Shown piece by piece: positions 52,807 to 57,585 of a stretch of 64,000 nt of DNA; positions within the stretch are counted from its first letter, which is position 1, and the number at the start of each line of letters is the position of its first letter. The position numbers and the translations under genes were made by a program. This DNA is from an uncultured Pseudomonadota bacterium. Lineage in GTDB: Bacteria; Pseudomonadota; Alphaproteobacteria; RF32; CAG-239. The stretch lies in contig CACWQS010000007.1 of NCBI GenBank assembly GCA_902763155.1, positions 1 through 64,000 of the forward strand. Direction: 5' to 3'. The notes below the pieces were generated by a model. It was not told where the DNA came from, did not search any database, and saw nothing but the letters and a program-made list of their open reading frames with translations.

Positions 52807-52870
52807 CTGTTTTATATCCTGTTTTTTTATAAATTTATCGTAAAACAAAAAAGAGAATTGTCAATAAAAT

Positions 52871-52903
52871 ATAAAAAAAATAACCGCTCGTCTTGTGAGC
52901 GGT
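52871..52903 (-). terminator. Intrinsic terminator of the lipoprotein operon
   Basis: Minus strand: ACCGCTC, a 7-base loop, GAGCGGT, then TATTTTTTTT. Confidence 0.88.
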
Positions 52904-52933
52904 ATTAAATGATTAAATTATTTACTAACTAAA

Positions 52934-53359
52934 TTATTTTTGATTATCAATTGGTGTCATATTCATTAGAGCATCGTCTTGTTCTAAATAATACATATCA
53001 CCGCTTATCGGGTCAATAATCAGCAAACCGATAAGACCGCCAAAAATAATATTTGCCCAATACCAACCGCTTATATGATAATCAATACGTGTTTGATAAT
53101 CTTCATAGCCGTCCTTATGCGCATAAACTGTATAGTATTGAGGGTTAAAGTAACCATCATCAGAAGTTTTTAGGTTAATGGTTGTCGGAGTCTGTCCTTC
53201 AAAAACAGTAAGACCGTTTCTATCTATAATTTTAATATCTACATTAGCAGGACTTGCATTTAGTGTTATCGGCTCCATATTATCACGCATAATGGTTGCG
53301 CAACCGAAAATCATTGGTAAAATGCCTATAACAGCACATAACATAAATATCTTTTTCAT
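52934..53359 (-). CDS. Small lipoprotein with internal hydrophobic segment
   Basis: A 141-residue lipoprotein with signal peptide and lipobox MIFGCATIM, so Cys20 should be lipidated. The middle part is a beta-rich PEGA-like region (DIKIIDRNGLTVFEGQTPTT). A later hydrophobic run, NIIFGGLIGLLIIDPISGDM, is typical of a widespread uncharacterised bacterial and phage lipoprotein type. Function unknown. AAGGAC precedes the ATG. It follows the DUF2846-like gene by four bases and is the last gene before a strong terminator. Confidence 0.82.
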   Translation of the reverse strand: MKKIFMLCAVIGILPMIFGCATIMRDNMEPITLNASPANVDIKIIDRNGLTVFEGQTPTTINLKTSDDGYFNPQYYTVYAHKDGYEDYQTRIDYHISGWYWANIIFGGLIGLLIIDPISGDMYYLEQDDALMNMTPIDNQK

Positions 53360-53363
53360 CTTA

Positions 53364-53780
53364 CTAGTCCTTTTGAATAAGTTTACATTCTTTGATTTCT
53401 GATAAAGCGCGACTTTGGTCAGAAACCAACTTAATATTATAACGTCCAGAAATAGCCCCCCAATTTACACCGGAAGAAACATAATATTCTTTTCCTGCTT
53501 GTGCATCTACAGTAATAGATTCTGTATTTTCTATACTTTCAACAGTGTAAGTATGTTTTCCGGCAGATGTGTGGTGCGGATAATAGCCGCCATTATACAT
53601 TGTAATGATTGTGTTACCATTTTCTTGCACGTCTGGAGACATTCCGCCACCAACATATTTCCACGGGCGGTAAAAATACACGATTGCTTCCTCTGAATTT
53701 GGTTGTTGCGGAGAGAATTGTTCCCCTAAACTGGCACACGAACAAAGTGCAAATACACATAAAATCAGATATTTTTTCAT
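53364..53780 (-). CDS. DUF2846-like lipoprotein
   Basis: A 138-residue lipoprotein. The signal peptide ends in FALCSCASLG; Cys15 of the SC pair is the likely lipidation site. The mature part resembles DUF2846: EEAIVYFYRPWKYVGGG near the start, then an AGKHTYTVESIENTE segment and AQAGKEYYVSSGV. Function unknown. AAGGAT supports the start at 53780; the ORF extends 48 codons upstream into the previous gene without support. It lies downstream of the barrel gene, with a terminator-like hairpin at 53811-53839 in between. Confidence 0.82.
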   Translation of the reverse strand: MKKYLILCVFALCSCASLGEQFSPQQPNSEEAIVYFYRPWKYVGGGMSPDVQENGNTIITMYNGGYYPHHTSAGKHTYTVESIENTESITVDAQAGKEYYVSSGVNWGAISGRYNIKLVSDQSRALSEIKECKLIQKD

Positions 53781-53810
53781 CTCACTAATCCTTTTTTTTC
53801 TTTTCCTTTT

Positions 53811-53839
53811 TAAAAGGCTCAATAACTTGGTATTGAGCC
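53811..53839 (-). terminator. Intercistronic terminator-like hairpin
   Basis: Minus strand: GGCTCAATA, a 6-base loop, TATTGAGCC, then TTTTA. The stem is perfect over nine base pairs but the T run is only four. It may lower expression of the two downstream lipoproteins relative to the barrel protein, or protect the upstream mRNA from 3' decay. Confidence 0.75.
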
Positions 53840-53868
53840 CCAAGTCAAAAGGAATATCGTTATAAAAA

Positions 53869-54441
53869 TTAGAAATTATAGCGAACGCCAACTGTTGCTT
53901 CGCCAATGTAATCAATATAGTCATTATCTATATGATGATAACGGAACATTCCGCGAATTGACCACTTGTCATTGATGTTATATTGTGTGCCTAAACCAGC
54001 ACGAAAAGCAGTTTTATTAAGAATTTCATGTACTTCCCATTTATCATATTTTCCAGCTTTTATATCAAAGCTATAATGACCTACACCGGCAATAGCAAAT
54101 AAATCGAGTTTTGTATTGAGGGGAATATAACCAACAGCATCAAGACCAACGGAACTATATGACAAATCGCCTATTTTATAACCATGTGCTTTTAAATCTA
54201 CTTCCGAAGATCCTTGTGAAGAAACTTCTAAACCAAAATATTGATTAAATTTTACGCCTAAATTTAAATTGGCAATAAGAAACGCTTCTGAATGGCTCTC
54301 TCCCAGTAATTTATTTACCTTATTATTATATTCAATTCGTGATGCACCTAAATCCATTCCAATATAAGGTTTAATTCCCTCTGCATTTGCTTGAGCTGTA
54401 AATAAGCAGGCTACACCTGTAAGTAATAGATATTTTTTCAT
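53869..54441 (-). CDS. Outer-membrane beta-barrel protein, 190 aa
   Basis: A small barrel of the OMP_b-brl type. The signal peptide ends at ACLFTAQANAEG. Alternating strands follow, for example GIKPYIGMDLGASRIEYN, AFLIANLNLGVKFNQYFGLE and KLDLFAIAGVGHYSFDI. The last strand (GEATVGVRYNF) ends in Phe, the Bam signal. About eight strands fit 170 mature residues. AAGGAT precedes the ATG. The gene is preceded by a structured leader with a terminator that ends 26 bases before the ATG, so it is probably regulated at the RNA level. Confidence 0.85.
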   Translation of the reverse strand: MKKYLLLTGVACLFTAQANAEGIKPYIGMDLGASRIEYNNKVNKLLGESHSEAFLIANLNLGVKFNQYFGLEVSSQGSSEVDLKAHGYKIGDLSYSSVGLDAVGYIPLNTKLDLFAIAGVGHYSFDIKAGKYDKWEVHEILNKTAFRAGLGTQYNINDKWSIRGMFRYHHIDNDYIDYIGEATVGVRYNF

Positions 54442-54466
54442 TTGTTTTCCATCCTTTTAAAAGTTC

Positions 54467-54494
54467 AAAAAAATACCCGCTTTTCTTTAGCGGG
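54467..54494 (-). terminator. Leader terminator upstream of the barrel gene
   Basis: Minus strand: CCCGCT, a 7-base loop, AGCGGG, then TATTTTTTT. It ends about 26 bases before the ATG at 54441. Its 5' arm overlaps a segment that can pair with an upstream part of the leader. Confidence 0.88.
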
Positions 54495-54686
54495 CGGATG
54501 TTCGAAAACCGTCAATGATCAAGTAAAAACCGGCTCGGCTTATTTGGCCGGATAGCCTTATTCAGCCGACATCCGTCCAAAAAGAACAGAAGTCGGCATA
54601 TATATTTAAGTCGCATATGCACACACGACTACTTGATTATTAGTAGGGTTTTCGACGCCCTAAGTATGTCTTTTCCATACCTACTA
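54467..54686 (-). ncRNA. Candidate cloverleaf-like leader RNA with alternative terminator pairing
   Basis: About 220 nt on the minus strand before the barrel gene. A 5' helix pairs 54686-54680 with 54647-54641 (7 bp) and encloses a small GTATG/CATAC hairpin. A 7-bp helix ATCAAGT/ACTTGAT (54637-54631 with 54524-54518) closes a junction with three hairpins: AGTCG/CGACT (54630-54609), GCCGAC/GTCGGC (54597-54565) and CCGGC/GCCGG (54551-54530). The segment at 54578-54569 (GGACGGATGT) can also pair with 54501-54492 (ACATCCGCCC), blocking the terminator arm. I cannot assign it to any RNA family I know. Confidence 0.6.
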
Positions 54687-54691
54687 GCTAG

Positions 54692-54719
54692 GTTATATGA
54701 AATTGAAACAAAAGTAAAG
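54692..54719 (-). promoter_or_regulatory. Probable promoter of the leader RNA
   Basis: Minus strand: CTTTAC at 54719-54714, a 16-base spacer, TATAAC at 54697-54692. The -35 is weak. It is placed correctly between the gyrA terminator and the folded leader. Confidence 0.5.
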
Positions 54720-54726
54720 AACTATT

Positions 54727-54759
54727 TTAAAAACGCCTCACTTTTTATGTAAGGCGTTT
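54727..54759 (-). terminator. gyrA terminator
   Basis: Minus strand: AAACGCCTT pairs with GAGGCGTTT across a short AT-rich loop, followed by a T run. Confidence 0.85.
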
Positions 54760-54783
54760 AAATTTTGTTGATTTCGAAATAAC

Positions 54784-57585
54784 TTAAGCATCAACTTCGT
54801 CTGTTTTCGGCTCGGCAATCACTTCATCTGCCATTATTTCGGCTGCCTCAATCTCGGTATCGGTTTCCTCATCTATTTCCTCATCAGTGCCTTCATCAGC
54901 ATCGAGTTTGGTTACCGAAACCACTTTCTCATCATCGGCGGTGCGGAACAAAATCACGCCTTGCGTCTTGCGTCCGGCAATACGAATGTCATCTACCGGC
55001 ATTCTGATTAACTTACCGCCGTCGGTTACCATCATGATTTCCTTATCTTCTTCTATCGGGAATGAACTGACAACTTCCTTATTACGCGGCGACATTTCCA
55101 TATTGGCAATACCTTGACCGCCACGACCGGTTACACGATATTCATACGACGACGAACGTTTACCATAGCCGGTTACCGTTACGGTGAGCAAAAATTCCTC
55201 CAACTCTTGCATTTGGGTAAATTTTTCCGGCGTTAATAAGTTCAACAAGCCGGTCTGATCAGCCGTCATGCAACTGATTTCGCCGGTTTCGGCATCAACC
55301 TTCTTCATGGCGCTTGAAATGCGGAGATACTCATCACGCTCATCGGCATTAGCGCTAATATGCTTTAAGATAGACATGGAAATTACTTCATCTCCCTTGG
55401 CGAGTTTAATGCCGCGCACGCCGGTTGAATTACGTCCGACAAACACACGCAAATCGGCCACTGGGAAGCGAATACACTTACCCAAGCGCGTTGCCAACAT
55501 AATATCGTTATTATTATCGCACAGTGCCACATTGACCAGTTTGTCGCCATCATCAAGCTTCATGGCTATTTTACCGTTAGCTTGAACGCGAACAAAATCC
55601 ATCAAGCTGTTGCGGCGGATATTTCCGGTTGCCGTGGCAAAAGCAATCGACAACCCTTTGCACTCCTCTTCATTTTCCGGCAACTTCATAATTGCAGTAA
55701 TGTTTTCGCCGTTTTCCAGAGGAAGCAGGTTAATAAACGGCTTACCCTTAGAGGTCGGTGAACCGAGCGGCAACTTATAAACCTTCATCTTATAAACAAT
55801 ACCGCGGCTCGAGAAGAACAACACCGGTGTATGTGTGCTTGCCACAAACAGACGGGTAACAAAATCTTCTTCCTTCGTAGTCATGCCCGATTTACCCTTA
55901 CCGCCACGTTTTTGTGCCTTATAAGCATTAAGCGGTACACGTTTGATATAACCTTCTTCGGTAACCGTAACCACCATTTCTTCACGCTGAATCAGCGATT
56001 CAATATCTTGGTTAAACTCGATATCTTCAATTTGGGTTAAACGCGGAGTAGCATATTCATCTTTAACAGCAACCAATTCATCACGCATAATACCATAAAG
56101 TTTCTCACGGCTGGATAAAATCGAAAGATATTCTTTAATATCATCACCTAAAGCCACCAATTCATCGTGAATTTTATCACGTTCCAAACCGGTCAAGCGT
56201 TGCAATTTCAAATCCAATATCGCTTTGGCTTGGTCTTCGGAAAGTTGATACATACCGTTTTCAACCTTATGATCCGGTTCATCAATCAAATCTACCCATG
56301 AAGCAATACTACCGGCCGGCCACGGATTAGCTGTCAGGCGATCACGTGCATCTTGCGGTGTAGGAGCGGTTTTAATCAACTCAATTACCGGATCCAGATT
56401 TTCTACCGCTATTGCCAAACCAACCAATACATGCGCTCTGTCACGTGCTTTATTTAAGCGATATACCGTGCGACGACGGATAACTTCTTCACGAAATTCG
56501 ATAAAGGTCGAAATAATGTCGCGCAAATTCATCATCATCGGGCGCCCGCCGTTAATGGCGAGCATATTCATCCCAAAACTGGTTTGCAGCTCGGTGTATT
56601 TGTAAAGCTGGTTCAAAATTACTTCGGCTTGGAAGTCGCGCTTAATTTCGATGACGATACGCACACCTTGACGATCCGACTCATCACGGATATCGGAAAT
56701 ACCTTCAATGCGTTTATCTTTGACCAATTCAGCAATATGCGCCACCAAATTGGCTTTATTAACCTGATAAGGCACTTCATGAACAATAATGGCTTCTTTA
56801 TCCTTACGAATTTCTTCAATAGAGCATTTTGAGCGCATCATTACCGAACCGCGACCGGTTAAATATGCCTGACGCGCCCCGCCGTAACCTAAAATCAGTC
56901 CGCCGGTCGGAAAATCCGGTCCCGGAACAATTTTAATTAAATCTTCAATAGAAATTTCCGGATTATCAATATAGGCACAGCAGGCATCAATTACCTCGCC
57001 TAAATTGTGTGGCGGAATATTGGTCGCCATACCAACGGCAATACCGTTACCGCCATTAACCAATAAATTCGGAAAACGTGCCGGTAAAACGGTAGGCTCT
57101 TGTAATGATTCATCATAGTTCGGCATAAAGTCAACGGTATCTTCGTCCAAGTTATCGGTCAAGCAGGTGGCAACCTTAGCTAATCTTGCCTCTGTATAAC
57201 GCATAGCAGCGGCACCGTCACCATCCATCGAACCGAAGTTACCCTGCCCGTCAACCAAAGTTAAGCGCATTGAAAACGGTTGCGCCATACGCACCATAGC
57301 TTCATAAATTGAGCTGTCGCCGTGCGGGTGATATTTACCCATAACATCACCGACAATACGTGCCGATTTACGGTAAGGCTTGGTGTTATCATAGCCATTC
57401 TCAAACATTCCGTAAATAATGCGTCGATGCACAGGTTTCATACCATCTCTGGCATCAGGTAATGCACGCGAAACAATCACGCTCATGGCATAATCCAAAT
57501 AGCTGCGGCGCATTTCTTCAGAAATCATGGTCGGGGCAATATTATCGGTTTTAACAACTTCGGTTGTTGCAATTTCTTCAGTCAC
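54784..57585 (-). CDS. gyrA: DNA gyrase subunit A
   Basis: Breakage-reunion subunit of the gyrase that introduces negative supercoils, 933 residues. The quinolone-binding segment [20 protein letters not shown] has Ser at the E. coli 83 equivalent and Glu at the 87 equivalent. The catalytic Tyr is in the AMRYTEARL motif. C-terminal pinwheel blades include the GyrA box region ([12 protein letters not shown]). An acidic tail of about 45 residues follows. The start is GTG at 57585, with AGAGG seven bases upstream, and a promoter (57604-57631) leaves only a very short leader. A terminator follows. Confidence 0.97.

Follow-up and report, generated by a model that had tools for sequence, protein, structure and literature searches.

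C4 is known as the immunity RNA of two phages infecting E. coli. The unit to which it belongs controls the antirepressor operon of phage P1, with C4 acting as a repressor. The phage P1 record annotates the segments a1, b1, c4, a2 and b2, and the locus matches the Rfam models c4-a1b1 and C4 as well as isrK (35 bits), the isrK-like match lying between a1/b1 and c4. No terminator is annotated in this unit before icd. C4 is cut by RNase P at a GGW motif and acts in trans, its b' segment blocking an RBS, and the Group 1 sRNAs of Acinetobacter baumannii include many C4-like RNAs per genome, reported to be processed at GGW (PMC5320573). IsrK, from the Salmonella prophage Gifsy-1, is a terminated sRNA that activates in trans and whose read-through mRNA is translated via alternative folds (PMC4825925). 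sRNA-Xcc1 (RF02221) is described as a trans-acting sRNA (PMC2996969, PMC12444791).

The window, i.e. the whole stretch of 64,000 nucleotides that was analysed, carries a structured leader on the minus strand between gyrA (end at 54784) and a gene encoding an outer-membrane beta-barrel protein. A promoter-like site, a folded RNA of about 220 nt, an intrinsic terminator and a Shine-Dalgarno (SD) sequence follow one another; these four parts, already named in the preliminary description, were all recovered (Table 1). The minimum free energy (MFE) of the 253-nt stretch is -84.6 kcal/mol, against -56.9 +/- 4.3 kcal/mol for shuffled sequences (z -6.5, 0/200), which rules out a chance fold as the source of the structure. 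The helix that had been seen by eye to close a junction with three hairpins corresponds to the MFE fold, in which 54637-54630 pairs with 54525-54518 and encloses three hairpins. The long-range pairing of GGACGGATGT with ACATCCGCCC does extend over 9 of 10 positions, as had been claimed. As judged by eye, the hairpin H0 varies in sequence among the listed copies.

Table 1. Elements of the leader and of the three-gene unit that follows it (positions in the window).
Feature	Position	Strand	Remarks
Promoter-like site	54690..54718	-	-35 TTTACT (54718-54713), 17 nt, -10 TAACCT (54695-54690); read from the sequence
5' hairpin H0 (GTATG..CATAC)	54664..54680	-	At the probable transcript start; MFE fold
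Hairpin H1 (AGGG/CCCT)	54645..54661	-	Loop and 3' side hold a1
a1, TCGAAAACC	54655-54647	-	Complementary to a'
b1, ATCAAGTA	54630..54637	-	5' strand of the copy-specific closing helix
Hairpin H3 (AGTCG..CGACTT)	54608..54630	-	Compensatory changes
Strand x (GCCGAC)	54592..54597	-	Partner of y in the precursor fold (hairpin H4)
Helix P1, 5' strand, GGACGGATGT	54569..54578	-	Begins with GGA, fits the GGW motif
Strand y (TCGGCT)	54564..54569	-	Partner of x (H4) or z (P2)
Strand z (AGCCGA)	54535..54540	-	3' side of P2
b', TACTTGAT	54518..54525	-	In the P3 loop; partner of b1
a', GGTTTTCGA	54502..54510	-	Partner of a1
Helix P1, 3' strand, ACATCCGCCC	54492..54501	-	Its ACATCC is also complementary to the SD
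Intrinsic terminator	54467..54495	-	Stem 54495-54475, T-run 54473-54467
Shine-Dalgarno GGATGG, a2-like	54449..54454	-	Also given as 54454-54450; in the read-through MFE fold, its GGATG is the partner of CATCC
Outer-membrane beta-barrel protein, 190 aa (OMP_b-brl)	53869..54441	-	ATG at 54441; Pfam PF13505, E 3.5e-17
DUF2846 lipoprotein, second gene of the unit	53364..53924	-	Listed ORF; the actual start is probably further downstream
Small lipoprotein, third gene, before endA	52934..53359	-	By eye like the RNA-led proteins of L117, L120 and L121

The order and topology of these elements are those of phage P1/P7 C4 (RF01695; c4-a1b1, RF03163; clan CL00128). Both systems comprise, in the same order, a hairpin, an a1 hairpin, b1, a spacer hairpin, the core and a target (a putative one in the window) at the downstream RBS, H0 being the counterpart of the first c4-a1b1 hairpin of phage P1. 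The core consists of the closing helix P1, P2, P3 with b' in its loop, and a' placed before the 3' strand of P1; a check of the phage P1 sequence found b' before a' there as in the window. The complementarities a1:a' and b1:b' are also common to both, and the GGA at the base of P1 in the window copy (54578) fits the GGW motif. The window family, i.e. the window locus and its relatives, differs from C4 in its sequence, in the terminator located between the core and the gene, in an SD matched by a' together with ACAUCC, in copy number (up to 55 per genome) and in the envelope and defence genes that it leads instead of icd/ant. It also seems to lack b2, one of the contacts that define C4. Many C4-like RNAs in a single genome are a feature shared with the A. 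baumannii Group 1 sRNAs; these belong to another lineage, and the available part of their source reports neither a link to surface genes nor a terminator-led leader. The family resembles IsrK (RF01394) in having a terminator after a small RNA and a read-through mRNA, and differs from it in that the window has no sequence or model match to IsrK, whose target is orf45/anrP.

In the Rfam scan, no family attained its gathering score, whether in the window or in 20 further loci. The preliminary description had seen no motifs of the TPP, cobalamin, SAM, FMN or c-di-GMP riboswitch classes; no riboswitch model was found in the window, either at threshold or among the weak matches. C4 scored 14.7 bits in the window (gathering score 45), and isrK matched neither the window nor any of the 20 loci in the scan at threshold. 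Scores for Rfam membership are not reached, and the window family probably works like C4, of which it would probably be a diverged relative.

The C4-type contacts recur across the family. In 76 distinct parsable copies that entered permutation tests, a1 and b1 lie upstream and are complementary to a' and b', respectively (0/5000 permutations for each). The longest contiguous Watson-Crick run between b1 and b' has a mean of 9.9 bp within a copy against 4.1 bp between copies, and the corresponding values for a1:a' are 7.9 and 5.5 bp; these permutations leave some relatedness between copies in, as descent is not modelled and many copies from one genome (G011) are recent duplicates. The sequences of b1 and b' vary greatly among copies yet agree within each copy. 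Because RNAalifold, when applied to the MAFFT alignment, merged helices belonging to the two states, the pairings were tested singly, a1:a', H3 and H4 being scored on this structure-free alignment. a1:a' covaries at 3 pairs (98% of cells paired) and H3 has compensatory changes at 4 of 6 pairs (96.5% of cells paired). For a1:a', H3 and H4 together, 93.9% of cells are paired, and double-changed cells number 53, compared with 16.5 in shuffled alignments and 3-15 in slid controls. Strand x is complementary to y in 69/76 copies, and the TCAGC variants of y come with matching x and z, i.e. the three strands covary. P2 is paired in 97% of cells and compensated at three of its five pairs.

Helix P1 is nearly invariant inside the window family, and 19 of the 29 aligned copies retain its A-C mismatch. 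The P1 sequences of distant members, among them a paralogue from the same genome (L079), are quite different but still complementary over their full length (8-10 pairs of 8-10), so the helix can be considered real. The long-range pairing of the preliminary description is this helix and is upheld by these compensating changes; a1:a', H3 and H4 show more covariation than the shuffled and slid controls. The fold of the trimmed RNA (see below), the covariation of P2 and the compensation in P1 thus delineate a core of three stems that places b' in the loop of P3 and a' just ahead of the 3' strand of P1, as in C4. The family also displays compact conserved loops, NAAUAAGGC and AAUAAGCCGAGCCG. In a distinct subfamily (L116, L152, L163), the strands of P1 carry GGGTGGATG; the small gene led by L116 encodes a protein similar to the one encoded behind L029.

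Among weak Rfam matches, sRNA-Xcc1 is the best over this part of the window (24.4 bits, gathering score 53). Another copy, L011, scores 33.6 bits (E 2e-4) and the own-genome paralogue L079 37.9 bits, and no window-family copy tested reaches the gathering score. In all three, the P1-P2-P3 core aligns with model positions 1-87 of 87, and in L011 the P1 helix of sRNA-Xcc1 falls exactly on the long-range pairing. L079 (G000:C4:16279-16422) is Xcc1-like, with a T-run directly after P1 and no close gene behind. A search across the phylum found sRNA-Xcc1 in 58 of 398 genomes, some having up to nine copies. In 30 of these loci, two segments are complementary to the P3 loop, one upstream (b1) and one between the core and the gene (b2); in 26 of the 30, a' likewise has a match on either side, a1 upstream and a2 downstream (0/5000 for each). 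The sampled genes behind sRNA-Xcc1 encode Bro-N, KilA-N, P22_AR_N, Rha and SymE proteins. In L166-L195, which are loci from Pseudomonadota genomes, sRNA-Xcc1 behaves as the core of a C4-type unit with the layout of phage P1, its a2 and b2 being located at the SDs of genes for antirepressor-like and SymE proteins. Upstream of one such unit, in G622, a c4-2 RNA was detected under its gathering score (RF02944, 34.8 bits; L175:2890-2958, minus strand). A literature search, with most subscription papers outside its reach, found no paper joining sRNA-Xcc1 to C4-type targets.

The P1-P2-P3 core and the a1/b1 and a'/b' segments are thus common to sRNA-Xcc1 and the window family, a2/b2 being found in the Xcc1 loci. 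A terminator is present in 84 of 98 window-family copies versus one of 25 sRNA-Xcc1 loci, and antirepressor and SymE genes lie behind the latter versus surface genes behind the former. Judging from the sequences compared, the window family has gained a terminator and lost b2.

Two further copies were detected in the same genome (1.47 Mb) by DNA search, making three strong copies in total, and half of 38 related genomes gave matches in such a search. A covariance model (R1), built from 29 aligned copies (alignment A1) and used for genome searches, found copies in 25 of the 26 genomes of the genus, the maximum being 55 copies in G011, and in 123 of the 153 genomes of the order (16 of its 17 genera). 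Across the class, 18 of 385 genomes were positive, scattered over other alphaproteobacterial families. Named records with the core pattern, Azospirillum sp. CAG:239 among them, almost all belong to uncultured Alphaproteobacteria of the gut or rumen. The exact core pattern had no match in viral contigs, and a phage-borne mobile element was rejected on this ground. Promoters, terminators and start codons were counted in 98 located copies. Promoter-like -35/17/-10 sites precede 82 of them, against 14.7 expected from shuffled upstream DNA, the -10 box mostly ending 22-30 nt ahead of the core; a terminator lies by rule 3' of the core in 84; and 93 are followed by a start codon on the same strand, at a median of 51 nt past the core (5-95% range, 42-60 nt). 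This is a large, previously unrecognised RNA family, located mostly ahead of variable surface and defence genes.

The genes led by the window family include those for a family 8 glycosyltransferase, a Stealth capsule-type phosphotransferase, an EcoRI-type methylase, an Mrr nuclease, a sialyltransferase-like GT29 protein, an autotransporter, PEGA and TRL proteins and lipoproteins, and BspA-like LRR proteins are found behind leaders in G011. They have no metabolic theme. The sampled genes are envelope, defence and other genes, and control of a phage antirepressor was not encountered among them. In G011, a 1.5-Mb genome, many copies (L082-L112) lie ahead of secreted proteins, the two tested being of the BspA-type LRR. 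In at least two further species (G004 and G002), the RNA also precedes related barrel genes, and a relative of the DUF2846 lipoprotein gene is, as seen by eye, led directly by the RNA in G003 (L011). In five genomes (G017, G018, G002, G009, G038), endA directly follows gyrA; here, the RNA and three genes intervene, and the whole unit was therefore gained here or lost there. The region after gyrA (52849-54783 in the window; L298-L315) is variable in the genus, being empty in several species and holding other insertions elsewhere. In G020, a barrel gene follows gyrA without the RNA.

The leader can adopt alternative folds. The MFE fold of the full leader is a self-paired state (a1:a', b1:b', x:y) at -88.2 kcal/mol, versus -64.1 kcal/mol with P1 forced, a cost of about 24 kcal/mol. 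In the RNA trimmed at its 5' end to start at the GGA (54578), P1 (in a 7-bp version), P2 and P3 fold together with the terminator. The preliminary description had proposed that a hairpin, the long-range pairing and the terminator could not all form at once. The hairpin (54597-54564) and P1 are indeed mutually exclusive; P1 overlaps the terminator by only 2-3 bp and coexists with it in the trimmed RNA, so that P1 is not a plain antiterminator and the data are better read otherwise than as a simple choice between terminator and antiterminator. What stands of the proposed riboswitch or attenuator is a leader located in cis, with exclusive folds and co-varying alternative strands; a ligand-binding riboswitch is not supported.

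A contact with the SD is suggested by several observations. In the MFE fold of the read-through RNA, CAUCC of the leader is paired to GGAUG of the SD. Of 93 RNA-led genes, 48 have GGATGT in their SD, versus none of the 41 other long ORFs of the window; G011 duplicates are not independent, but some 20 copies outside G011 also have the motif, as judged by eye. The segment a' plus ACAUCC is complementary to many downstream SD regions and covaries with them: it fits its own SD region better than those of other copies (1/10000 permutations; 26/10000 for the variable part alone). In the window copy, the match is limited to GGATG. An action of b' on its own RBS region, as in Xcc1, was rejected for the window family, its match being non-significant (477/3000 permutations).

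Taken as a whole, the element is likely an antisense control leader of the C4 type in the service of a cellular envelope gene, and its lifecycle could be viewed as follows. The upstream promoter would drive synthesis of a leader with two complementary halves, the 5' one comprising a1, b1 and x and the 3' one a', b' and y. The nascent RNA would first adopt the self-paired state, and the majority of transcripts would end at the terminator; those reading through would have their SD GGAUG paired to the CAUCC of the leader. Once the 5' half is removed, possibly by RNase P at the GGA (54578) as in C4, or bound in trans, the RNA would take the C4 form (P1, P2, P3), leaving a' and b' exposed. This form would be an antisense RNA acting on a1/b1 of new transcripts, and may also target its own SD region and those of sister genes that carry GGAUGUU. 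Processing by RNase P, action of the trimmed core in trans and repression by default would follow by analogy with C4. Activation is also conceivable, given the precedent of IsrK (PMC4825925). The evidence is comparative throughout; the arrangement and pairings of the leader suggest that it regulates the gene behind it.

Some of the same observations would fit a purely cis-acting, bistable attenuator, the C4-like core never acting in trans and the leader setting its own read-through and SD access through co-transcriptional folding or a bound protein. Every copy has a private b1/b' pair, the read-through RNA in its MFE fold engages its own SD with CAUCC, and b2 is absent. However, C4, the closest relative of known function, acts in trans after cleavage by RNase P (PMC5320573), the window copy has a GGA processing motif, and self-complementary decoys such as a1 and b1 are difficult to explain without a partner in trans, which makes this reading rather unlikely. 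An activating unit similar to IsrK, in which the short terminated RNA would open the SD of the read-through mRNA in trans, is of comparably low probability. It has the precedent of the same arrangement of terminated sRNA and read-through mRNA with trans activation (PMC4825925), the leader between a1/b1 and c4 of phage P1 matches the isrK model, and competition for CAUCC would free the paired SD of the window; nevertheless, the scan at threshold of the window and 20 loci gave no isrK match, and C4 itself represses.

A metabolite-binding transcriptional riboswitch of an unknown class, as proposed in the preliminary description, is very improbable: the compact conserved loops, the terminator and the downstream gene would suit it, whereas the conserved a1-b1-b'-a' order is that of the C4 system, the led genes share no metabolic theme, and P1 and the terminator are compatible in the trimmed RNA. 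Hardly any credence can be given to a stand-alone trans-acting sRNA with its own terminator, lying beside genes by chance. The promoter, the terminator and the sRNA-Xcc1 match are what such an sRNA would have, but the narrow spacing to a same-strand start codon in 93/98 copies leads to its rejection, and the complementarity between the RNA and the SD regions also speaks against it.

A large, terminator-bearing, probable relative of C4 is present in most genomes of a gut bacterial order, and the genes that it leads face phages and hosts. Rfam's sRNA-Xcc1 has been regarded as an independent trans-acting sRNA from plant pathogens. C4-type a1/b1/a2/b2 targets surround it, and antirepressor and SymE genes follow directly; it thereby gets a concrete and testable mechanism, and families kept apart by Rfam are joined. 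More speculatively, and with little confidence at this stage, a phage immunity RNA may have been domesticated in gut Alphaproteobacteria as a genome-wide control of the variable surface and defence repertoire, a network of RNAs picking which surface proteins are expressed. If so, dozens of leaders per genome would combine a common anti-SD (ACAUCC) with a private b1/b' barcode, so that each copy could recognise itself while all compete for the common site.
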